Source: Bradyrhizobium prioriisuperbiae
Lineage (GTDB): Bacteria; Pseudomonadota; Alphaproteobacteria; Rhizobiales; Xanthobacteraceae
Assembly (NCBI RefSeq): GCF_032397745.1
Contig: NZ_CP135921.1
Location: 2,418,001 to 2,482,000 of the forward strand
Direction: 5' to 3'
Length of the DNA stretch: 64,000 nt
The notes under the pieces are model-generated. The model saw only the letters and a program-made list of their open reading frames with translations. It did not search any database and was not told the DNA's origin. Position 1 is the stretch's first letter, and each line of letters begins with the position of its first letter. The position numbers and the translations under genes were made by a program. Positions 37,167 through 47,492 of this stretch are shown in pieces.

Positions 37167-37270
37167 AGCGTTTTCGAGCGAAGTGGATACCGGTTCGCGT
37201 GAAGAAAACGCGTCAAAACAAAAATCTAGAGCCTCTGTTGTGATTCAACCAGAACGGAAAAGGCTCTAGA
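37164..37270. repeat. interspersed repeat, family C, overlapping the end of the hydrolase gene
   Basis: Matches 17374-17476 closely from AGAGCGTTTTCGAGCGAAGT through GGATACCGGTTCGCGTGAAG and ends GGCTCTAGA. Its first three bases provide the TAG stop of the metallo-hydrolase gene. Confidence 0.85.
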
Positions 37271-37303
37271 ACCTGATCCCAGCGCAAACGCGACGCGCGG
37301 AGC

Positions 37304-38239
37304 TCAGCCCGGCTTCTTTGGCTGAGTCAGCAGTTTGGCCAGCAGCCGCCCGCTCGGCGGCAATGGCCGATCGATCGCTGATATCAGCGAGAACTGTGTT
37401 GTGTAGCGGAAAGCCTCTGCCCCCCGGACTTCCTGGAGACGATGGATGGGCCCCAGCATCTCGACGTAATGCGTCGGCAAAAAGCCGATGAAACGGCCGC
37501 CGACCAGCATCGTTGCGACGGCTTCCAGCCCAAAGGCGACGGCATGCTGCTTGATCTGCAGGCGTCTCGCCAGGTTCTGTGTGCGTCGGTCGTTTGTGCG
37601 CGTCACCAGAACAATCTCGCTGTCGTGCAAATCATCCAGCTCCAGCGGTAGTCCCGCTGCCGCATACAGCCGGAATTCTTCCGTAAACAACGAGGTGTAT
37701 TCGAGCTTGCCGTTGCTCGCGGGCTGACCGCTGATGGCAAAGTGCAGGCGTCGTTCCAGGACGTCCTCGACCAGCGCGCTTGGCAGGCCGATCGAGATAT
37801 TGAGCGTGACATCGGGCGCGGCTTCGCGAAAGTGCGTCAGTGTCTCGGCCAGTTGGCAGCGCGGGTTGGACAGGCAATTGTCGGCAATGCCGATCTTCAG
37901 TTCGCCCGATAGAATGTTTCGGGCCAGATTGAGTTCGTGACGCACCATGTCCAGCGCATCGCAGGCCGCGATGCTGGCATGCAAAGTCCTTCGACCGAAA
38001 TCGGTCAGCTCGAAGCCCGACGGACCGCGAAAACAGAGCCGGCCACCCAGTCGTGTTTCCAGCGCCAGCAGATGCCGGCTGATGGTCGAGCGCTCCATGC
38101 CGAGCTGGGTTTCCGCGGCGGTCAGTCCGCCGGCTTCCGCGACGGCGCGAAACACCCGCAGCAGCCTCAGATCCGTTTCGGTGAGTTGTGGAACCGGCGC
38201 AGGCGTGACGTGCTTCATCGCGGGCGATACGTGCTTCAT
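37304..38239 (-). CDS. LysR-family regulator divergent from the ureohydrolase-ABC operon
   Basis: A 311-residue LysR protein. The winged helix is LRLLRVFRAVAEAGGLTAAE followed by LGMERSTISRHLLALETRLG; the effector domain spans about 105-305. The N-terminus holds a direct duplication, MKHVSPA MKHVTPA. GGGAG lies 7 bases before the ATG at 38239. It diverges from the operon at 38399-44102 across 159 bases, so it probably senses the imported compound or a product and controls that operon. Confidence 0.9.
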   Translation of the reverse strand: MKHVSPAMKHVTPAPVPQLTETDLRLLRVFRAVAEAGGLTAAETQLGMERSTISRHLLALETRLGGRLCFRGPSGFELTDFGRRTLHASIAACDALDMVRHELNLARNILSGELKIGIADNCLSNPRCQLAETLTHFREAAPDVTLNISIGLPSALVEDVLERRLHFAISGQPASNGKLEYTSLFTEEFRLYAAAGLPLELDDLHDSEIVLVTRTNDRRTQNLARRLQIKQHAVAFGLEAVATMLVGGRFIGFLPTHYVEMLGPIHRLQEVRGAEAFRYTTQFSLISAIDRPLPPSGRLLAKLLTQPKKPG

Positions 38240-38355
38240 GTTGCACTCCCTACAAGCATGGTTTCAGCAGTCGTCATTCTGCACAAGGCGAAGCCCGGAT
38301 TACCGTGCGCCATCACCTCGGCGACCCGCGGGCCGATCGCTTTTCGGTCAGATGC

Positions 38356-38374
38356 CGATTTGTTCGGCAAATCG
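38356..38374. promoter_or_regulatory. inverted repeat upstream of the first ureohydrolase, candidate LysR operator
   Basis: CGATTTG-TTCGG-CAAATCG, a perfect 7-bp inverted repeat containing a T-N11-A core, the LysR-box form. It ends 24 bases before the ATG at 38399. It could equally be a hairpin in the mRNA leader. Confidence 0.45.
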
Positions 38375-38398
38375 AACACGGCGTTATTTGGAGGACGT

Positions 38399-39364
38399 AT
38401 GGCTCTGCCCTTGACGGTGCCGCCTTCGCTAAAGCACCAGAGCCTGCTCTGGTCGCCCATCTGCACCGATCTCGATGCTCTTGACGCGCACGTCGCCATT
38501 CTCGGCATCCCGTTTGGCAGCGCTTACCAGGCCTCCGCGATCACGAACGATCAGAGCAAGGCGCCGGATGCGGTTCGGTCCGTCACCGATCGCATCTGCC
38601 GCGGCCTGGAACGCTACGATTATGACGTCGGCGGCCCGATCTACGGCGGACGTGCCTTGAAAGTGGTCGATGTCGGCAATGTTCCCGCCGACATGACCGA
38701 CCTCCGCAGCCATTACGTTCGCGCCGAACAAGCAGTAAGCAAGATTCTTGCCGCCGGTGCCCTGCCGATCACCATCGGCGGTGACCACGGCATCCCGATC
38801 CCGATCCTGCGCGCCTACAAGGACCATGGCCCGATCACGCTGATCCAGGTCGATGCGCACATCGACTGGCGCGACCATGTCAATGGCGTCCGCGATGGCC
38901 TGTCGAGCCCGATCCGCCGGGCATCGGAGATGCCGCATATCGGCGAAATCTTCCAGATCGGGATCCGTGCGCAAGGCAGTGCGCGCCCGGAGGAGGTCGA
39001 GGCGGCGGCTGCCTACGGGTCCAACATCATTCCGGCATACGAAGTGCATGACCGTGGCATGGACACGGTGCTCGAGCGGATCCCGGACGGGGGCCAGTAC
39101 TACATCACCATCGATGCCGATGGCCTTGACCCGAGCGTGATGCCGGCCGTCGAGGGCCCGGCTCCCGGTGGGCTCACCTTCCATCAGGTGCGCAAGCTAA
39201 TCCACGGCCTCGTTCGCAAGGGACGCGTCGTGGGCATGGACATCGTGGAGATCACGCCGTCCACCGACGTCAACATGATCTCCTGCATCACCGCCGGTCG
39301 CCTGATCGTGAATCTGATCGGGGCGGCCGTGCGGGCGAACTATTTCGACGCGCCGCCCGCCTGA
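38399..39364 (+). CDS. ureohydrolase (agmatinase/arginase family), copy 1
   Basis: A 321-residue Mn-dependent ureohydrolase, a family that hydrolyses guanidino compounds to urea plus an amine. Metal ligands are in place: His130 in GGDHGIP, Asp152, His154 and Asp156 in VDAHIDW, Asp239 and Asp241 in TIDADGLDP. Where agmatinases have HGTxF after the metal loop, this protein has RDGLSSPIRR, so agmatine is not an obvious substrate; guanidinoacids, guanidinobutyrate or guanidine are alternatives. A strong GGAGG precedes the ATG at 38399. First gene of a co-directional block with an ABC importer. Confidence 0.88.
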   Translation: MALPLTVPPSLKHQSLLWSPICTDLDALDAHVAILGIPFGSAYQASAITNDQSKAPDAVRSVTDRICRGLERYDYDVGGPIYGGRALKVVDVGNVPADMTDLRSHYVRAEQAVSKILAAGALPITIGGDHGIPIPILRAYKDHGPITLIQVDAHIDWRDHVNGVRDGLSSPIRRASEMPHIGEIFQIGIRAQGSARPEEVEAAAAYGSNIIPAYEVHDRGMDTVLERIPDGGQYYITIDADGLDPSVMPAVEGPAPGGLTFHQVRKLIHGLVRKGRVVGMDIVEITPSTDVNMISCITAGRLIVNLIGAAVRANYFDAPPA

Positions 39365-39403
39365 GACGATGTCATCATCCGCAACAGCAGAAGAGGTGCC
39401 GCC

Positions 39404-40261
39404 ATGCCGCAGATCAAACGCAAAGTGATGGGTCTTCTCGCAGGGAGTGCCTGTTTCGTCGTCGCTGCGAGCGCGCCTGCCTTCGCCGAGACGACGCTGG
39501 AGAAGATCAAGCGGACCGGCGAGGTGACGGTCGGCACCGAAGCCGCCTATCCGCCGTTCGAATTCGTCAGGGATGGCAAGATCGTCGGCTACGGCCCCGA
39601 CATCCTGGCTGAGGTGGTGAAGGAATTCGGTGTCAAGAAACTGAATCAGCTCGATCTGCCCTGGCAAGGCATCTTGCCGGGTGTGCTGGCCGGCAAGTTC
39701 GATTTCGTCGCCACCACGGTCGGCATCAATCCGGAGCGCGCCAAACGTTATGCCTACACCATGCCGATCGCCGACGGCGTGTCGTATGCCATGAAGCGCA
39801 AGGGCGACAAGCTGAGCAAGCCGGAAGACCTCAACGGCAAGGTCGTCGGGACACAGCTCGCGTCCTCGACGGAGCCAGTGGCGCGGGCCCTCGACGCCAA
39901 GCTGAAGGCTGCGGGTGGATCGGGCTTCAAGGAATTGAAGCTGTTCACGGCGTTCCCCGAAAGCTACGTCGCACTCGCCAATGGCGAGGTCGATGCGGTG
40001 ATCCAGCCGCTGCCGAGCCTCGCCGCACTGGTCAAGGACAAGCCCGACGTGTTCGAGCTGCTGGCCCCGACGCCTCAGGACGGAGGCTTCACGTATCTGT
40101 CCTGGGTCACGCGACCCGACGACAAGGATCTGCGCGATGCCATTTCCGCCGTCATCCGCAAGATGCGCGACGACGGCCGGCTCAGCGCACTGCAGAAAAA
40201 ATGGTTCGGTTTCGAGATGAAGATTCCGGACGACGGCTACCTGCCGCCTGGTGCGATGTAG
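39404..40261 (+). CDS. periplasmic substrate-binding protein, polar amino acid type
   Basis: A 285-residue solute receptor. The signal peptide ends near PAFAE, then two lobes (RTGEVTVGTEAAYPPFEFV is the classic lobe-1 start). The ligand-carboxylate arginine of the HisJ/LAO family is probably in GINPERAKR. The aspartate that normally holds the ligand alpha-amino group (D in the pattern AFQDEVAA) is replaced: AVIQPLPSLAALV. The substrate may therefore carry a carboxylate without a standard alpha-amino group. The gene precedes its two permeases and lies between two ureohydrolase genes. Confidence 0.9.
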   Translation: MPQIKRKVMGLLAGSACFVVAASAPAFAETTLEKIKRTGEVTVGTEAAYPPFEFVRDGKIVGYGPDILAEVVKEFGVKKLNQLDLPWQGILPGVLAGKFDFVATTVGINPERAKRYAYTMPIADGVSYAMKRKGDKLSKPEDLNGKVVGTQLASSTEPVARALDAKLKAAGGSGFKELKLFTAFPESYVALANGEVDAVIQPLPSLAALVKDKPDVFELLAPTPQDGGFTYLSWVTRPDDKDLRDAISAVIRKMRDDGRLSALQKKWFGFEMKIPDDGYLPPGAM

Positions 40262-40305
40262 GCGAGTGGATGGGCGGTCTTTGACCGGCGTGAAAGGTCG
40301 ATTGC

Positions 40306-40965
40306 ATGGGCTTCAAGCTCGATTATCTGCTCTCGATCCTGCCCGCTCTGATGCGCGCGGCGGCCGTCAACATCCGCCTGGCGCTTCTGATCATGCTGCT
40401 GGCGCTGGCGCTTGGCACCGCGCTCACCATCCTGCGCTCCCGCAAGATTGCCGCGGTAAACGCGTTCATCGCCGTCGTCATCAGCTTCGTGCGCGGCACG
40501 CCGCTGCTGATCCAGATCTTCATCGCCTATTATGTGCTGCCGGCTGTTGGTCTTGATCTCTCGCCGCAAGTCGCGGGTGTCTCCGCCATTGCGTTCAACA
40601 GCATGGTCTTCGTCAGCGAGAGCATGCGCGGCGGCCTCGCGACCATCGATTCCGGTCAGATCGAGGCAGCGACCGCGCTCGGCCTGCCGCCGCGCGCCAT
40701 CTGGTTCAAGGTGGTGCTGCCGCAGCTATTCCGCCGCATCGTGCCGGTGCTGATCAACGAGGCGACCATCGTGGTGAAGGGCACCGCGCTGCTGTCGGTC
40801 ATCACCGTGGTCGAGGTGCTGCGCACGGCCCAGCAGATTGCAAGCGCGAGCTATCGGCCGTTCGAGACTTTGATTGGCGCGGCGCTGATGTTTCTGGCCA
40901 TCAATCTCGTTATCAGCCTGTCCGGCCGGGTGGCGGAGAGCCGGTTCGCGCGGTCGCGGATCTGA
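40306..40965 (+). CDS. ABC importer permease 1 (HisM/HisQ type)
   Basis: A 219-residue inner-membrane permease of the polar amino acid family with about five helices. The ATPase-docking loop is [20 protein letters not shown], and [16 protein letters not shown] near residue 65 is a further family hallmark. It pairs with the permease that starts three bases after its stop. Confidence 0.92.
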
Positions 40966-40968
40966 GCC

Positions 40969-41691
40969 ATGCATTTCAATCCCGCTTTGCTGCTCGATTA
41001 CTGGCCGCTGTTGCTGCAGGGCGCTTGGCTGACCGTCCAGGTCTCGGCCACGGCCCTGGTCATCGGCTATGCCGCAGGGATTGCGGTCGCATTGATTGCG
41101 CTGATGCCGGGGTGGCCGCCGCGGCTGGTCACCGGGCTCTATATCGAAACGCTGCGCAACATTCCCTTCATCATCCTGCTGTTCGTCGTTTATTACGGAC
41201 TGCCGTTTTCAGGCATTCGCCTGCCGGCGACCTTCGTCGGGACGCTGGCGCTCGCGCTGTTCGCCAGCGCCTATTATGCCGAGATCGTGCGTGCGGCGAT
41301 CCTGGCGCTGCCGCGCGGCCAGTTCGAAAGCGCGCGCGCCATCGGCATGTCGCCGGCAGAGGCGATGTGGCATGTGGTGGCGCCGCAGATCCTGCGCACG
41401 CTGGTGCCGCCGTCCACCAATATGACGCTGACGATGATGAAGGAGTCCGCCGTACTCTCCTCCATCACGGTGCCGGAGCTCACCTACCAGAGCCTTGTCG
41501 TGCAGGGGAACACGTTTGCGCCCTTCGAGGTATTCGCGGCGGTGGCGTCGATCTACTGGCTGATCGCGGCCGTGATTGCGGAATGCTCCAGGTGGCTGGA
41601 GCGCCGCGTTGGCGCGACCCAGGCCGGCGGCGTCAGCCGCAACACCATCGCCGAGCGTTACCTATCCCTTGTCGCGCGGAGGGCCTCATGA
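40969..41691 (+). CDS. ABC importer permease 2 (HisM/HisQ type)
   Basis: A 240-residue partner permease. Hallmarks: [20 protein letters not shown] and the docking loop [20 protein letters not shown]. Its stop overlaps the ATG of the ATPase gene, so translation is coupled. Together with the upstream permease it forms the heterodimeric channel. Confidence 0.92.
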
Positions 41692-42500
41692 GCGCGACGC
41701 CGATCCTCCGCGTCTCGGGCCTGACCAAACGCTTTTTCGGCGCTGTTGCACTCGACAATCTGTATCTCGACGTGCGCCCGAGCGAGATCGTCGCGCTGAT
41801 CGGCCCGAGCGGTTGCGGCAAGAGCACATTGCTGCGCTGCCTGACCTGGCTGGAACAGCCCGACGACGGCTTCATCGAGGTGATCGGCAAGCCGTTCGGG
41901 CGGGAGTTGACCGGTGGCGGCGTGGTGCGCCGTCAGAGCCGGCGCGAGATCGATGCGCTGCGACCGAAGATCGGCCTGGTGTTTCAGCAGTTCAATCTCT
42001 GGCCGCACATGACGGCGCTGGAAAACGTGGTGCGCCCGCAGATGGTGGTGCTGGGGCGATCGCGGGCCGAGGCGACCCGGCGTGGCGAAGAATTGCTGGT
42101 GCGGCTGGGGCTCGCGGACCGGATCGATCGCCATCCGCATGCGCTGTCCGGAGGGCAGAAGCAGCGGGTAGCCATTGCCCGCGCGCTCGCGATGGATCCA
42201 GCCTTGATGCTGTTCGACGAACCGACCTCGGCGCTCGATCCGGAGTTGGTCGGCGAGGTGCTGGCGGTGCTGCGGTCGCTGGCCGAGACCGGCATGACCA
42301 TGCTGGTGGTCACCCACGAGATCGGATTTGCGGCCAACGTTGCCGACCGTATCGCCTTCATGGATCACGGCCGCATCCTGGAAGAGGGGCCGGCACGCGA
42401 GATTATCGCCGCGCCCAAGGAGCCGCGGCTGCGCAATTTTCTCGATCTGGTGCTGGCGGGCCGCCGTCAGGCCGCGTCCGCGATCAATTCAACGGAGTAA
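41688..42500 (+). CDS. ABC importer ATP-binding protein (HisP type)
   Basis: A 270-residue ATPase. Walker [11 protein letters not shown]-loop [10 protein letters not shown], signature ALSGGQKQR, Walker [15 protein letters not shown] and the switch His in VVTHEIGFA are all intact. An insert of about 14 residues ([18 protein letters not shown]) between Walker A and the Q-loop is longer than in HisP. The ATG overlaps the upstream permease stop. Completes the importer with 39404-41691. Confidence 0.94.
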
Positions 42501-42504
42501 CGTC

Positions 42505-43488
42505 ATGTCCTTCAACGTCATGTCCCGCGTCAACCGGCCCTATGTCGGCATCCCGTCGTTCCTGCGTGCACGGATCTGCGAGGACCTGTCGAAACTCGAC
42601 GCGGCCATCGCCGTGCTTGGCGTGCCCTTTGACGAAGGCTCGCCGTTTATGCCCGGCAGCCGCTTCGCGCCGCGCGCACTGCGCGAACATTCGCTGCGAT
42701 TTTATGGCGGCGGCAAGGGTTACTACGATCCGGAGACGCGCTGCGAATATCTCGTCGAGGAGATGTCGCAGGGCCTGATCGCCGACGTCGGCGATGTCGA
42801 TATCCATCCGGCCAACGCGCCGCGCACCTTTGAGAACATTACCGCCATGGTGCGCGGCATTCTCGATCGCGGCGCGCTGCCGGTGGTGCTTGGCGGCGAC
42901 CACTCAATCACCTATCCGATCTTCCGCGCGTTCGACGAGAAACTGCACGTCATTCACTTTGACGCGCACACCGACTACGCGCCGTTCGAGAACGATCTGA
43001 CCCTGACCAACAGCCACGCCTTTCGCCACATCGCCGGCATGGATAACGCGCTGAGCCTGACCCAGGTCGGCATCCGCAGCCTGCGCCATTCGCCGGCGCA
43101 GGTGGAGGACGTCATCGCGTCGGGCAATCGCATCATTCCAATGGGCGAGTTCCGCCGGATCGGCCCGCAAGGCGTTGCCGATCTGCTGCCGGCTGGCTCG
43201 CGCGTCTATGTCAGCATCGATGTCGATGCGATGGACATGTCGCTGGTGCCGGGCTGCGTCTCGGCCGAGCCCAACGGGCTGACCTATCCTGAATTGCGCG
43301 ACAGCCTGAAGGCCATTGCCGAGCGCCACGATATCGCGGGCTTCGACTTCGTCGAGGTCAATCCGCCGCTCGATGTCGGCACCGGCGTCACCGCCTATCT
43401 GGGGGCGCTGACCGTGATCGAATTTCTTGGCCACATCTGCGCCCAGCCCCGTTGGGCCGCTCGTCGCAACACCCGTTTCGCCGCTTGA
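42505..43488 (+). CDS. ureohydrolase (agmatinase/arginase family), copy 2
   Basis: A 327-residue ureohydrolase, clearly different from the one at 38399. Metal ligands: His133 in GGDHSITYP, Asp153, His155 and Asp157 in HFDAHTDYA, Asp239 and Asp241 in SIDVDAMDM. The usual DxDxxDP triad end is DxDxxDM here, and NSHAFRH stands where agmatinase has HGTxF. It has a GGAG ribosome site and starts 4 bases after the ATPase stop. Two different enzymes in one operon suggest sequential or alternative guanidino substrates. Confidence 0.88.
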   Translation: MSFNVMSRVNRPYVGIPSFLRARICEDLSKLDAAIAVLGVPFDEGSPFMPGSRFAPRALREHSLRFYGGGKGYYDPETRCEYLVEEMSQGLIADVGDVDIHPANAPRTFENITAMVRGILDRGALPVVLGGDHSITYPIFRAFDEKLHVIHFDAHTDYAPFENDLTLTNSHAFRHIAGMDNALSLTQVGIRSLRHSPAQVEDVIASGNRIIPMGEFRRIGPQGVADLLPAGSRVYVSIDVDAMDMSLVPGCVSAEPNGLTYPELRDSLKAIAERHDIAGFDFVEVNPPLDVGTGVTAYLGALTVIEFLGHICAQPRWAARRNTRFAA

Positions 43489-43499
43489 AGGAGATCATC

Positions 43500-44102
43500 A
43501 TGAGCGAAGTCAGCGAGACCATTCCCGCCACCCGCGGCAAAGCCATTCGTCTTGGCCGGGGCCAGGCCGTCAAGGTGATCAACACCCACGGCTCCCAGGT
43601 GGTGGACACCTGGGCGTTCTGCATCGAGGATCTGCGACATCACATGTCGATGGAGCATACCAGGGTCGAGAACGCCCGGCTGATGCCGGCCGCCGGCCAG
43701 ACGCTGTTCACCAACAAGCGCGAGCCGATCCTGGTGCTGGAAGAAGATACCTCGCCCGGAATCCACGACACGCTGATGGCCGCGTGCGACCGCTGGCGTT
43801 ACAAGCATCTCGGCTGCACCGATTATCATCGCAACTGCGCCGACAACATGATCGAGGCCATGGCGGAGATCGGCTTGAGCGCCGGCCATGTGCCGCAGCC
43901 GCTCAATCTGTTCATGAACATCCCGGTCAACAGCGATCTCAGTCTGACCCAAGGCGAGCCGGTCTCGCGCCCAGGCGATCATGTGCTGCTGCGGGCGACA
44001 CGGGATTGCTACGTGGTCTTCTCCGCCTGCCCGCAGGACATCACGCCGATCAACGGCGCCGAACGCAAACCGACCGAGGCGCATATTCAGCTGATGGGCT
44101 GA
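43500..44102 (+). CDS. DUF1989 / urea-carboxylase-associated family protein
   Basis: A 200-residue protein of the DUF1989 family. Recognisable stretches: VINTHGSQVVDTWAFCIEDL, the HMSMEHTR block, LGCTDYHRNCADNM and PQPLNLFMNIPV. Members associated with urea (guanidine) carboxylase include the carboxyguanidine deiminase subunits CgdA/CgdB, so a link to guanidine-type nitrogen chemistry is known for the family. There is no carboxylase or allophanate hydrolase gene here. GAAGGAG lies 6 bases before the ATG. Last gene of the operon, followed by a hairpin. Confidence 0.85.
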   Translation: MSEVSETIPATRGKAIRLGRGQAVKVINTHGSQVVDTWAFCIEDLRHHMSMEHTRVENARLMPAAGQTLFTNKREPILVLEEDTSPGIHDTLMAACDRWRYKHLGCTDYHRNCADNMIEAMAEIGLSAGHVPQPLNLFMNIPVNSDLSLTQGEPVSRPGDHVLLRATRDCYVVFSACPQDITPINGAERKPTEAHIQLMG

Positions 44103-44123
44103 TCGCGTCGGATGGGAGGCCCG

Positions 44124-44150
44124 GGGATTCTCACATTAAGCGAGAATCCC
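44124..44150. terminator. hairpin between convergent DUF1989 and EamA genes
   Basis: Perfect 9-bp stem GGGATTCTC (44124-44132) / GAGAATCCC (44142-44150). No strong T-run on either side, so termination strength is uncertain. Confidence 0.6.
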
Positions 44151-44153
44151 ACA

Positions 44154-45041
44154 TCAATGTATGCGTGTCGTGCCGTCGCGCGGGGCTCTCAGCCATTCCG
44201 CGGGGAGCACGATGATCGAAAGGCCCAGCAGGATCAGGGCCATGCCGGCGTAACGCGCCGGACTGAAGATCTCGCCGAACACCAGCGCTGAGGCCAGCAC
44301 GCCCGTACAGGGCGACAGCAGAGCAAACGGGGCAACTGCGCCGGCAGGATAGCTTTGCAGCAGATCGCCCCAGATCGCATAGGCCATTGTCGCGGCCGCT
44401 CCGAGATAAACGGCGCCTGCGAGTCCCAGGAACGAGGCGTCCGAAATCGCTGTTATGAAGCTCGGCTCGTGGTTTTGCAGCGCGGAGATTACTAGCGACG
44501 GCAGCGGCGGGATGAGGCTCGCCCACACGATGATGGAAAAGATCGGCACCGCGGGCGCTCGCTTGACCAGCACATTGCCAACCGCCCAACTCAGCGCACC
44601 AGCCAGCGCAAGCCCCAGCGCCAATGGTTTGAAATCGGTCCCGACGGTCAGCCCGATCAATATCAGCCCCGCAAAGGCGACAGCCATGCCCGTGCATTGG
44701 CGTCGGTTGGGAATGTCGCGCAGGACAATGGCGGAGAGCAGCACGGTTAGAAAAACCTGCATCTGCTGCGTCACGGACGCGAGGCCCGGTGGCAGGCCAG
44801 CTTCGAAAGCGAAGAACAACAGCAGGAATTGTCCGGCGAACAGGGTGGTCCCGATCATCACCAGCATGCACCATCCGATCCGTGGTCGCGGCACAAACAG
44901 GATGGGCACGCTCGCGATCAGAAACCGCAAGGCGGTGAGCTGCGGTGCGGAGAAGCTTTCCAGGCCCCACTTGGTCGCGACAAAAGCGAAACCCCAGATT
45001 AAGGACGTGAGGGCCGCCAGGATCATGTGACGCGGGGTCAT
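44154..45041 (-). CDS. EamA-family (DMT) metabolite exporter
   Basis: A 295-residue inner-membrane protein with ten predicted helices in two EamA repeats (first: LAALTSLIWGFAFVATKWG; second begins near ALSWAVGNVLVKR). Related proteins export cysteine, O-acetylserine or other amino acids. It is divergent from a MocR regulator, a frequent arrangement in which the regulator controls the exporter. Confidence 0.9.
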   Translation of the reverse strand: MTPRHMILAALTSLIWGFAFVATKWGLESFSAPQLTALRFLIASVPILFVPRPRIGWCMLVMIGTTLFAGQFLLLFFAFEAGLPPGLASVTQQMQVFLTVLLSAIVLRDIPNRRQCTGMAVAFAGLILIGLTVGTDFKPLALGLALAGALSWAVGNVLVKRAPAVPIFSIIVWASLIPPLPSLVISALQNHEPSFITAISDASFLGLAGAVYLGAAATMAYAIWGDLLQSYPAGAVAPFALLSPCTGVLASALVFGEIFSPARYAGMALILLGLSIIVLPAEWLRAPRDGTTRIH

Positions 45042-45120
45042 CGCGCGCGCTCGTTTCCGCTTGCCGGGTCTCGGGTGGGATGGTGAGCGAGAGGTTAATT
45101 TGCTAATGGATCTGCAAGAA

Positions 45121-45147
45121 GGTCCACTTTCAATATTTAGGTAGACC
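45121..45147. promoter_or_regulatory. inverted repeat between the EamA exporter and MocR genes
   Basis: GGTCCAC (45121-45127) and GTAGACC (45141-45147), a near-perfect inverted repeat with a 13-base AT-rich spacer. Two bases downstream is the earliest possible start of the MocR gene. A likely MocR binding site that could also overlap the promoter. Confidence 0.55.
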
Positions 45148-45149
45148 AC

Positions 45150-46703
45150 TTGAACGAAAAGCGCCCACGTTCGCCCCGTCATCGGGATCAAGTGCTGCCG
45201 GCTGCGAGGCCGGGATGGGCCATGCTCTATGACTGGCGACAGGTGGATCGCGGCAGCGAGGCCTCGGTCGTTCACCAGGCCTATTTGCAGGTTCGCTCGG
45301 CTATCCTGTCGCGGGGGCTTCGTTCCGGAGCCAGATTGCCGTCCTCGCGCAGTCTGGCGTCGCGGCTCGGCATTGCGCGTGCGTCGGTCATCGCCGCTTA
45401 TGAGCAACTGCTCGCCGAAGGATATCTCTCGTCCAAACGAGGTTCGGGGACTTACGTTTCGACCGATCTTCCCGAAAGGGTCGACACGGGCTCGCCGGAT
45501 CGGCAGCGGCATTCGCTGCAGGCAGATCATGTGCGACAAGAAGATCCTGTCCCGGTTGAAAGCGCCGCTGGGTTTCTGGCTCACACGGACGAGCGGCCCT
45601 TCAACACGGGGCGCACGCTGCTGGATGAGCGTACCGTCGAGGTCTGGCGGCGCCTGACCCGGCATGCGGCCCGGACTTTCGGGCCCGACCACCTCGGCTA
45701 CGCCAATCCCTGCGGCTCGCCGGAGCTGCGCCGCGCGATCTGCGATTACCTGCGGGCTGCGCGGGCGGTGCGTTGCGATCCCGGACAGATCATCGTCACC
45801 GCGGGCACGCAGCACGCGATCGATATTGCGACCCGCGTGCTGCTTCGCCCTGGAGACCAGGCCTGGGTCGAGGATCCCGGCTATCCCTTTGTCCGGCAGG
45901 CGCTCATCAGTTGTGGAATCGTCGTTCGGCCGGTTCCGGTGGATGCGCAGGGGTTGGATGTCGGTGCAGGCATCGGACTGGCGCTGGCGGCGCGGGCGGC
46001 GTTCGTGACGCCCTCTCATCAGTATCCGACCGGCGTGGTGCTCTCGATGGCGCGACGGCTCGAGCTTCTTGCATGGGCACGCACGAACGACGCCTGGATT
46101 GTCGAGGACGACTATGCCAGTGAATTCCGCTATTCGGGCCGGCCGCTGGCGTCGCTCCAGGGCCTCGATGACAGTGGGCGGGTGATCTACATCGGCACGC
46201 TCAACAAGGCGCTGTTTCCCGGTCTGCGGCTCGGCTATGCCGTGGTACCGGCGCCATTGCTTGCGACATTCGCGACCGCGCGCAGTCTCATGGATCGGCA
46301 ACCGCCGAGCCTGCAACAGGCAGTTATGACCGCGTTCATGCGCGACGGTCATCTCGCCGCTCACATCCGCCGCATGCGATTGCAGTATCGCGTGCAACGT
46401 GATGCGCTTGCGGAGGAGCTGACGCGGACGGCGGGTGACGTACTCACCGTGGACGTGCCGGATCAGGGCATGCATCTGGTCACCTATCTCGGCGATGGAC
46501 TCTCCGACGTCGCTGTCGAGCAATCGGCGCGTGCGCGCGGCGTGATCGTCAAGGCCATGAGCAAGCTATACATCGATGCGCCTGCGCGCTCGGCGCTCAT
46601 GCTCGGCTTCAGCGGATATCCTCGTGAGGTGATCGTGCCCGCAGCCGCGCGTCTGGCCAAAATCGTGATTGCGGCGAAGCGAGCCAGGCGAACGGAATCG
46701 TGA
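45150..46703 (+). CDS. MocR/PdxR-type GntR regulator with aminotransferase domain
   Basis: A 517-residue fusion of a GntR winged helix (residues about 40-110: LRSGARLPSSRSLASRLGIA and SSKRGSGTYVS) and a fold-type I aminotransferase domain with the PLP lysine in YIGTLNKALFPGLRLGY. Such proteins sense PLP or an amine and regulate transcription. The start is uncertain: TTG at 45150 abuts the operator-like repeat, GTG at 45189 and ATG at 45222 (MLYDW...) are alternatives, none with a strong ribosome site. It diverges from the EamA exporter gene it probably regulates. Confidence 0.88.
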   Translation: MNEKRPRSPRHRDQVLPAARPGWAMLYDWRQVDRGSEASVVHQAYLQVRSAILSRGLRSGARLPSSRSLASRLGIARASVIAAYEQLLAEGYLSSKRGSGTYVSTDLPERVDTGSPDRQRHSLQADHVRQEDPVPVESAAGFLAHTDERPFNTGRTLLDERTVEVWRRLTRHAARTFGPDHLGYANPCGSPELRRAICDYLRAARAVRCDPGQIIVTAGTQHAIDIATRVLLRPGDQAWVEDPGYPFVRQALISCGIVVRPVPVDAQGLDVGAGIGLALAARAAFVTPSHQYPTGVVLSMARRLELLAWARTNDAWIVEDDYASEFRYSGRPLASLQGLDDSGRVIYIGTLNKALFPGLRLGYAVVPAPLLATFATARSLMDRQPPSLQQAVMTAFMRDGHLAAHIRRMRLQYRVQRDALAEELTRTAGDVLTVDVPDQGMHLVTYLGDGLSDVAVEQSARARGVIVKAMSKLYIDAPARSALMLGFSGYPREVIVPAAARLAKIVIAAKRARRTES

Positions 46704-46710
46704 ACGGAAC

Positions 46711-46746
46711 TCATTCCGGAGAGCCGCGGCGCGGCTTCCGGAATGA
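46711..46746. repeat. palindrome between convergent MocR and SIMPL genes
   Basis: TCATTCCGGA (46711-46720) pairs with TCCGGAATGA (46737-46746), enclosing a second stem GAGCCGC / GCGGCTT. Probably an interspersed repeat that also acts as a bidirectional 3' hairpin. Confidence 0.6.
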
Positions 46747-46772
46747 CGATTTCATGAAGGTCAATTCTTAAA

Positions 46773-47492
46773 TTACTGCTGCTTGATGGCGTAGGACACA
46801 CTCACCGCGATCCGCAGCGTCTCTGCGCCCGGTGCGATCGGAGTCGAGTCGGCGCTGGCCGACATCTTGCGCGCATACATCGGCACCGGGCCCGGCGATC
46901 CCTCTTCGGAAATGCTGATCGGCGCGCCGAGGTTGACATTGGCGGCCTTGGCGTAGATCTCCGCCTTGCGCTGGGCGTCGGCGATGGCGTGGCTGCGCGC
47001 CTCGTCCAGCAGTTTCGAGGCCTGCGACACCGAGAAGCTGATGCCGCTGATCTCGTTGGCGCCGGCGCTGACCAGGGTGTCGATGGCGGTCGCAACCTTG
47101 GTGACGTCGCGCAGCGTTAGCGTCACGCGGTTGCTGGCGCGATAGCCGGTGATCTGCACCGGTCCGTTGGGATTGCTGCGCGGCGCGCTCTGCTGCGGCT
47201 GCAGCGACAGCCGCGAGGTCTGGATGTCCTTCTCGGCAATGCCCGAGGCTTTCAGGGCCGCCAGCACGGCGCTCATCGCCTTGTTGTTGGCCTCGGCCGC
47301 TTCGCGCGCGGTCTTCGCCTCGGTGGTGACGCCGCCATCGATCTCCGCCCGGTCCGGAGCCACCGAGATGGTGGCTTCACCAGCCACCGTGATCGCCGGC
47401 GGCATGGTCTGCGCATGGGCCATCGATCCGGCAAAGGAGGTGCCGGCTAGGGCCGCAGCACAGATCAGAGCGAGAGAGGTCTTGCGCATCAT
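46773..47492 (-). CDS. periplasmic SIMPL-domain (DUF541) protein
   Basis: A 239-residue exported protein. The signal peptide ends near SMAHAQ. The mature part follows the SIMPL/DUF541 pattern: ITVAGEATISVAPDRAEIDG, GVTTEAKTAREAAEANN, then IQTSRLSLQPQ and YRASNRVTLTLRDV, closing with AETLRIAVSVSYAIKQQ. Some homologues protect against oxidative stress or form oligomers in the periplasm; function here is unknown. Followed on the same strand, upstream, by a second exported protein gene (23 bases between). Confidence 0.9.
   Translation of the reverse strand: MMRKTSLALICAAALAGTSFAGSMAHAQTMPPAITVAGEATISVAPDRAEIDGGVTTEAKTAREAAEANNKAMSAVLAALKASGIAEKDIQTSRLSLQPQQSAPRSNPNGPVQITGYRASNRVTLTLRDVTKVATAIDTLVSAGANEISGISFSVSQASKLLDEARSHAIADAQRKAEIYAKAANVNLGAPISISEEGSPGPVPMYARKMSASADSTPIAPGAETLRIAVSVSYAIKQQ

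Follow-up and report, generated by a model that had tools for sequence, protein, structure and literature searches.

The window analysed here comprises 64,000 nucleotides of the genome of Bradyrhizobium prioriisuperbiae (positions 2,418,001 to 2,482,000 of contig NZ_CP135921.1, assembly GCF_032397745.1), a genome of 9.08 Mb in a single contig. At positions 37304-44102 of the window, eight genes form a block that combines an importer of the ATP-binding cassette (ABC) type with two unlike members of the ureohydrolase superfamily, designated UH1 and UH2. The gene of a LysR-type regulator (37304-38239, minus strand; Pfam HTH_1 and LysR_substrate) is divergent from the operon, whose genes all lie on the plus strand. 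They code for UH1 (38399-39364; Pfam Arginase, 202 bits), the periplasmic binding protein of the importer (39404-40261; SBP_bac_3), ABC permease A (40306-40965) and ABC permease B (40969-41691; both BPD_transp_1), the importer ATPase (41688-42500; ABC_tran, 123 bits), UH2 (42505-43488; Arginase, 214 bits) and a DUF1989 protein (43500-44102; DUF1989, 157 bits). According to these coordinates, the gap between the genes of LysR and UH1 measures 159 nucleotides; the subsequent spacings are 39, 44 and 3 nucleotides, an overlap of 4, and then 4 and 11 nucleotides. This layout had been proposed by an original prediction made from the letters of the window; its positions hold, and each family name is borne out by Pfam. 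The prediction had also stated correctly that no urease, urea carboxylase or arginase is encoded in the block. The argument it drew from their absence is weak, since the genome carries such genes elsewhere, namely two ureases and one true arginase, in addition to one CgdA/CgdB pair.

A scan for UH2 over one genome per species yielded 20 loci, which later additions extended to 65; all were tested with all eight proteins. The six-gene core, which consists of UH1, the binding protein, permeases A and B, the ATPase and UH2, is complete in 18 of the 65 loci. Eight of the 18 are from named Bradyrhizobium and two from Chelatococcus, both sets being counted with their near-duplicates; the others are from 'Mycobacterium' KBS0706, a Xanthobacteraceae metagenome-assembled genome (MAG), an Enterobacterales MAG, Salipiger, Neorhizobium and three further sources. 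LysR is found at an identity of at least 40% in 16 of the 18 core loci. DUF1989 follows UH2 in 11 and is absent from the remaining seven; it is an optional member of the unit. Among 19 further UH1 loci, the core was present in two (L154, with three DUF1989 genes, and L161, with none), and L155 ends at a contig edge. Because the same gene order recurs in 18/65 and 2/19 loci, the operon is one real conserved unit beyond chance, which is what the original prediction had proposed to check. Separately, three DUF1989 genes were noted within an importer operon of a Palleronia plasmid; in L154 the three genes follow UH2 (L154:1762-5356). UH2 is broken in a Paraburkholderia locus (L016:6767-8937) and in an Acetobacteraceae MAG (L017:8001-8956). 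In L016 the importer is in pieces too, and a second set, consisting of importer, M20, DUF1989, helix-turn-helix and ureohydrolase genes, follows.

The 159-base gap between the genes of LysR and UH1 contains a box (38240-38265) that adjoins the start of the LysR gene; its blocks GTTGC, CTACAA and GGTTT are identical in all eight aligned intergenic regions. This box is a candidate regulator site and may in part be the ribosome site of LysR. The inverted repeat TGCCGA-N5-TCGGCA (38353-38369) is a candidate LysR operator; a TGCC..GGCA palindrome occurs at the same place in seven of the eight regions and is missing from L003. Box and palindrome are what would be expected of LysR control. A scan for promoters and terminators (0 and 2 found, versus 1.5 and 4.7 in shuffles) was uninformative.

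Active sites and phylogenetic position of UH1 and UH2

UH1 and UH2 share 28% identity. All six metal ligands (H, D, H, D, D, D) are kept in 21/21 rows of UH1 and 12/12 rows of UH2 in the tree described below. Both enzymes also possess Glu284 of the DIVE motif, which we take, by analogy to the residue roles in arginase, to hold the guanidinium group. The predicted role as hydrolases is thus in line with intact catalytic residues. The Gln of the GGLTFHQ stretch of UH1 was considered as a replacement of a lost guanidinium Glu; this idea was dropped, as the alignment to solved chains places the Glu in DIVE, where it is present. A structural model of UH1 was poor (predicted local distance difference test, pLDDT, 65; active-site loops below 50).

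The phylogenetic tree was calculated from 59 chosen rows, of which six are partial chains from the PDB and several long ones were flagged as unsure in place. UH1 (21 rows, support 100/98) and UH2 (12 rows, 100/100) form separate clades. Both are apart from the clade of GbuA, GpuA, SpeB and proclavaminate amidinohydrolase (100/96), from guanidinase and from classical HutG (100/100). The scores for curated families agree with this position: with 148.3 (UH1) and 128.3 bits (UH2), both enzymes miss the agmatinase cut-off (TIGR01230, 174.3), with 62.9 and 72.8 bits the arginase cut-off (TIGR01229, 227.6), and with 92.9 and 123.3 bits the HutG cut-off (TIGR01227, 229.15). The genome's own arginase is another gene, located at 3.025 Mb and scoring 247.3 bits. 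The record name 'agmatinase' is not supported by these scores for UH1 and UH2, and plain arginase or agmatinase was discarded as an assignment. The original prediction had pointed to ureohydrolases that act on agmatine, guanidinobutyrate, guanidinopropionate or guanidine; these specifics are not supported, as both enzymes lie outside the clade of guanidinobutyrase, guanidinopropionase and agmatinase.

Two positions on the substrate side of the active site are informative. In all 55 UH1 rows, an Arg (Arg158), preceded by Trp157, stands two residues after the DAHxD motif. The same site is occupied by Asn in the genome's arginase, GbuA, GpuA and PAH; in arginase, this Asn contacts the carboxylate. 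An Arg is likewise present in 8/8 sequences of classical HutG, an enzyme that acts on a dicarboxylate; note that this Arg is a feature of HutG noticed in the present alignments, with no published definition. UH1 and classical HutG otherwise share 20-23% identity, and the window operon contains no hut genes. Position 253 is Thr in five of six reference chains and in the genome's arginase, and Trp in guanidinase. UH1 contains Gly, Ala or Ser (54/55), UH2 contains Ser (12/12), HutG Ala (8/8), and the Deinococcus enzyme described below Ser (2/2). Because UH1 and UH2 are here closer to HutG and the Deinococcus enzyme, an N-formimino substrate is for them no less plausible than a guanidino one.

Among PDB chains, UH2 is matched best by 1WOG (191.6 bits), which has been deposited as an agmatinase. 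The 293 residues printed for this chain agree exactly with residues 6-298 of a protein from Deinococcus radiodurans. The corresponding gene is located between hutU, from which it is one gene apart, and hutI-hutH; D. proteolyticus is arranged alike. These hut-operon genes are found on Deinococcus plasmids (L115:4980-5894 and L134:4977-5909) in the order hutU-x-gene-hutI-hutH. Since the gene sits inside a histidine-utilisation operon, 1WOG is probably the formimidoylglutamase of that operon. The Deinococcus enzyme also misses the HutG cut-off (126.2 versus 229.15 bits), so the TIGR01227 model misses this type. UH2 groups with the Deinococcus enzyme and L018 (97/90) at 38-40% identity; over this distance, a common formimidoylglutamase reaction is only suggested. 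The neighbours of lone UH2 relatives (L012-L014, 67-69% identity) displayed no clear pathway. In one of these loci, which belongs to a gammaproteobacterial MAG, a gene for a PhyH-type oxygenase precedes the lone UH2 relative (L012:6488-8969, 67%).

Importer pocket, gene neighbourhoods and DUF1989

The importer belongs to the polar amino-acid class, as judged from its binding protein, its ATPase and the HEQRo_perm_3TM signature of its two permeases (73.3 bits for permease A and 88.2 bits for permease B; cut-off 42.2). None of its proteins reaches an equivalog cut-off. An AlphaFold model of the binding protein (pLDDT 82) matches amino-acid binding proteins, and a fold search with this model returned matches of several ligands without singling out a substrate. 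In 28 aligned binding proteins (L079 and L093, from one genome, are both counted), the Arg that presumably contacts the carboxylate is kept in 28/28, and the Asp that presumably contacts the alpha-amino group is found in none, being replaced by Ser (18), Pro (7) or Gly (3). Unlike the window protein and its relatives, three PDB proteins of this importer class, which comprises importers of arginine, glutamine, cystine and ectoine, possess the Asp (AncQR, ArtJ and a Thermotoga protein). Six further importers were inspected: the Asp is present in two that do not adjoin a ureohydrolase (the second binding proteins of L067 and L074) and lost in three that adjoin UH1-type genes (L092, L073 and L120). 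Because the binding proteins keep the Arg and lose the Asp, a plain amino acid is unlikely as the ligand; the pocket suits a compound that carries a carboxylate but lacks a free alpha-amino group.

The loss of the Asp bears on a rival explanation, according to which the importer takes up arginine, agmatine or a common amino acid and the two enzymes are in fact one arginase and one agmatinase. It would be in keeping with the class of the importer and with the records, which name UH1 relatives agmatinase in 17 of the 30 plasmid rows listed. Moreover, UH1 relatives of Ewingella and Azospirillum adjoin ArgE-type M20 genes that exceed the acetylornithine deacetylase cut-off. Given the missed agmatinase and arginase cut-offs, the separate arginase gene and the Asp lost in 28/28, we regard an ordinary amino-acid operon as improbable.

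Genes close to UH1 were counted within 6.5 kb at 54 loci, using a small home-made reference set, so that a missing label means little; the near-duplicate pairs L068/L123 and L070/L121 are included. The binding-protein family of the window was found at 28 loci, UH2 at 20, RidA at 9, an ArgE-like M20 at 7, MmgE/PrpD at 5, asparaginase at 4, HutF at 3 (for L158 a 27% match only) and aspartase at 2. UH1 frequently accompanies this importer and UH2 almost always does; each is also found without the other. For example, two Aminobacter plasmids contain the order binding protein, two permeases, ATPase, UH1, aspartase, ATPase and asparaginase. Two Paracoccus plasmids carry a similar set without aspartase, as identified by homology in the absence of annotation. 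In Azospirillum ramasamyi and A. oryzae the order is RidA-UH1-HutF-ArgE. In L094, the binding protein and the two permeases are followed by an M20 gene of the carbamoylase type (277.5 bits versus 204) and UH1. In L164, a pair of UH1 and another ureohydrolase lies beside genes for MmgE/PrpD, for ArgE-like proteins and for a member of the argininosuccinate-lyase family. MmgE/PrpD proteins include an iminodisuccinate epimerase according to the available part of PMC7347537, in which a title is cited stating that the breakdown of iminodisuccinate needs an epimerase and a C-N lyase. Taken together, the neighbours of UH1 point to N-substituted acidic amino acids. As a separate observation, UH1 relatives occur near or beside a ureohydrolase of a different group (UHspeB) at L163:112-2254, L164:8602-10594 and L167:746-5402; unlike ureohydrolases are thus paired repeatedly.

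The closest competitor as substrates, in line with the original prediction, are linear omega-guanidino acids (3-guanidinopropionate, 4-guanidinobutyrate, taurocyamine or creatine-like compounds). UH1 and UH2 would then be new hydrolases for different chain lengths that release urea. The binding protein would suit an acid that lacks an alpha-amino group, Glu284 is kept, and related importer clusters hold a guanidinopropionase-like enzyme. One such cluster, from Mesorhizobium ciceri, contains DUF1989 and three ureohydrolases, one of them 64% identical to GpuA; a ureohydrolase of a Paraburkholderia cluster is 55% identical to GpuA. GbuA and GpuA from Pseudomonas aeruginosa (3NIO, 3NIP) act on guanidino acids and share with UH1 and UH2 the superfamily, the metal ligands and the guanidinium Glu. 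However, identities amount to only 29-32%, the clade is a different one, and the residues on the substrate side differ: the Asn of GbuA and GpuA corresponds to Arg in UH1 and to Ala or Gly in UH2, and their Thr is replaced at position 253 in both enzymes as given above. In addition, the neighbouring aspartase, asparaginase and HutF genes are left unexplained by omega-guanidino acids. We therefore consider this alternative unlikely, although it is the strongest of those that propose another class of substrate.

The DUF1989 protein had been likened in the original prediction to the carboxyguanidine deiminase CgdA/CgdB. It scores 102.5 bits for UAAP2 (cut-off 284.7) and 57.7 bits for UAAP1 (cut-off 205.95), far below both thresholds, and is missing from seven of the 18 core copies. 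The genome's CgdA/CgdB pair, located at 8.048 Mb, exceeds these thresholds, scoring 332.4 and 304.4 bits. Judged by these scores, the DUF1989 protein of the window is not CgdA/CgdB, and it is encoded by a single gene. What it shares with CgdA/CgdB is the domain and three candidate zinc ligands, Cys96, Cys113 and Cys177, which are present in 20/20 DUF1989 rows; these represent 17 distinct genes, as three are doubled. Rows shorter than 85% of the respective window protein had been dropped before alignment. A zinc role of the three Cys in DUF1989 proteins is described in the part of PMC12560246 available to us. On Klebsiella and Pantoea plasmids, related DUF1989 genes lie downstream of an importer and an M20 gene, which in Klebsiella is of the carbamoylase type (368.8 bits versus 204). 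Because DUF1989 and a carbamoylase-type M20 stand together, the arrangement suggests deimination of a guanidino to a ureido compound, followed by carbamoyl hydrolysis. Another DUF1989 protein of the same genome that is not of the Cgd type (L112:2889-7779, at about 4.30 Mb) is encoded with cytosine-permease-like, azoreductase-like and PuuE-like genes; the set of DUF1989, cytosine permease and PuuE-like genes also occurs on Rhizobium and Phyllobacterium plasmids.

These data likewise bear on free guanidine, carboxyguanidine or metformin-type compounds as substrates, for which UH1 and UH2 would form a heteromeric nickel hydrolase or DUF1989 would act as carboxyguanidine deiminase. Two ureohydrolases in one operon are reminiscent of metformin hydrolase, and a DUF1989 gene of the guanidine carboxylase pathway. 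However, the Trp of guanidinase (position 223 of PF00491 in the accessible text of PMC11410670; GdmH, 7ESR), which shares the superfamily and the metal ligands, corresponds to Gly in UH1 of the window and to Ser in UH2. The metal ligands are complete in both enzymes, whereas one partner of metformin hydrolase is degenerated, as stated in the excerpt at hand of PMC11399263. Furthermore, a CgdA/CgdB pair that passes the cut-offs is encoded elsewhere, and UH1 and UH2 also occur apart. Substrates of this kind are thus highly improbable; the CgdAB/guanidine route and guanidinase were rejected on cut-offs and residues, and a metformin-type heteromer with a degenerated subunit is disfavoured by the complete metal ligands.

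Proposed substrate class and pathway

The general idea of the original prediction, namely uptake of an amidine compound and hydrolysis of its C-N bond, is retained; its specific assignments of DUF1989 and of the hydrolase types are not. The evidence leans towards an acid whose amino group is blocked, as either a guanidino or a formimino derivative. Our preferred reading, to which we assign a probability of roughly 0.45, is a LysR-controlled nitrogen-scavenging operon for the uptake of an acidic N-amidino or N-formimino amino acid and its hydrolysis by UH1 and UH2. From what was observed directly, namely the gene set and its conservation, the conserved active-site residues, the clade positions and the altered binding pocket, we infer substrate, products, sequence of steps and regulation as follows. 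The ABC importer would import a small acid with its amino nitrogen capped by an amidine group. Such an acid could be an acidic or short amino acid that bears an N-amidino (guanidino) or an N-formimino substituent; guanidinosuccinate, guanidinoacetate, N-formimino-aspartate and N-formimino-glutamate are examples. In the cytoplasm, Arg158 of UH1 would grip the carboxylate, and the two-metal centre would free the amino acid and urea (or formamide). UH2 may act likewise on a second, related substrate that differs in chain length, is a stereoisomer or is an intermediate. Where present, DUF1989 might open a further entry point, converting a guanidino into a ureido group by deimination. Urea would pass to the ureases of the genome.

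The two ureases, the Arg that UH1 shares with HutG and the grouping of UH2 with the Deinococcus hut-operon enzyme are consistent with this course, as are the recurrence of the unit, the binding pocket without the Asp, HutF, which adjoins UH1 in two of four Azospirillum regions, and MmgE/PrpD at 5/54 UH1 loci. The same holds for the UH1 relatives in operons with aspartase or asparaginase, for the carbamoylase-type M20 beside UH1 in L094, and for DUF1989 together with an M20 of this type behind a related importer. Among characterised relatives, the guanidino acid hydrolase of humans failed to cleave guanidinosuccinate, according to the excerpted text of PMC9772407, and the enzymes profiled from S. 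meliloti act on arginine, agmatine and 4-guanidinobutanoate-type compounds, as far as covered by the available passages of PMC7268258.

Several observations weigh against an acidic amidine as the substrate. The telling neighbours occur in a minority of UH1 loci and not in the window. Aspartase is linked to UH1 by two Aminobacter plasmids, and asparaginase by these and two Paracoccus plasmids; HutF is missing in the two Azospirillum regions of A. brasilense and TSH58. Seven of the 54 UH1 loci have no labelled neighbour except possibly LysR, and many lack aspartase, asparaginase and HutF alike. An Arg after DAHxD is also found in L018 and in the Thermoplasma chain 3pzl, deposited as an agmatine ureohydrolase, and UH1 does not group with classical HutG in the tree. 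As UH2 contains Ala or Gly at the Arg158 site (12/12), the argument for an acidic site does not reach this enzyme. With respect to the pocket, other importers are also without the Asp, and a DUF1989-rich importer (L116, three DUF1989 genes) keeps it.

A narrower proposal specifies a transferable uptake and hydrolysis pathway for a guanidinosuccinate-like acid, with two new ureohydrolase specificities that act in sequence or on stereoisomers and with DUF1989 as a side entry. In this specific form, it is rather doubtful, with odds scarcely better than those of the omega-guanidino acids.

Distribution of the unit and implications

The unit is patchily distributed. UH2 was found in 8/242 genomes of the genus that we equate with Bradyrhizobium (E <= 1e-90). 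For UH1, the scan of the class yielded 22/289 genomes (E <= 1e-60), that of the order 17/397 (E <= 1e-95) and that of the phylum 5/398 (E <= 1e-85), the genome of the window being included in all three counts; in the class of genome G517 it was found in 5/369 (E <= 1e-95). UH1 was not found in either of the two other genomes of the genus to which the window belongs.

A relative without the unit, G317, aligns on both flanks (73-84% DNA identity), and 161 bases stand there for window positions 37167-46780 (9.6 kb). Besides the operon, this stretch contains the genes of an EamA exporter (44154-45041, minus strand) and of a regulator of the GntR-aminotransferase type (45150-46703, plus strand). 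In the operon-bearing genome G795, the operon is located 5.5 Mb (contig coordinates) away from dapF, its neighbour in the window. In a comparison with seven relatives that carry the operon, similarity stops at or near the operon borders for six of them; in L005, which is without DUF1989, it stops at the end of UH2. Judging from the replacement in G317 and the border-limited similarity, the 9.6-kb block was either gained in the genome of the window or lost in G317. The G+C content of the stretch (0.634) and of the operon (0.637) does not differ from that of the rest (0.636), and a search for repeats around the inserted stretch found none at its borders. The same-genus genome G289 aligns on the right flank only and is uninformative on the insertion.

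Among the matches listed for searches of the open-licence literature on DUF1989, ureohydrolase guanidino, carboxyguanidine deiminase, guanidinosuccinate and amidinohydrolase guanidinoacetate, this gene set is not described. Guanidinosuccinate appeared there, again among the matches listed, in human and animal metabolomics, kidney and soil-metabolite studies, and not with bacterial catabolic genes. The literature on formimidoylglutamate deiminase was uninformative.

Genes of the arginase family are easily labelled agmatinase, as in the records of UH1 relatives, yet the two clades UH1 and UH2 very likely do something else. A group of DUF1989 proteins is placed outside the guanidine carboxylase pathway, and gene context suggests that the 'agmatinase' 1WOG is a formimidoylglutamase. 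With its binding protein, its enzymes and its regulator, the operon offers a handle for finding the compound. If the substrate is indeed an acidic amidine, these would be catabolic genes for compounds such as guanidinosuccinate.

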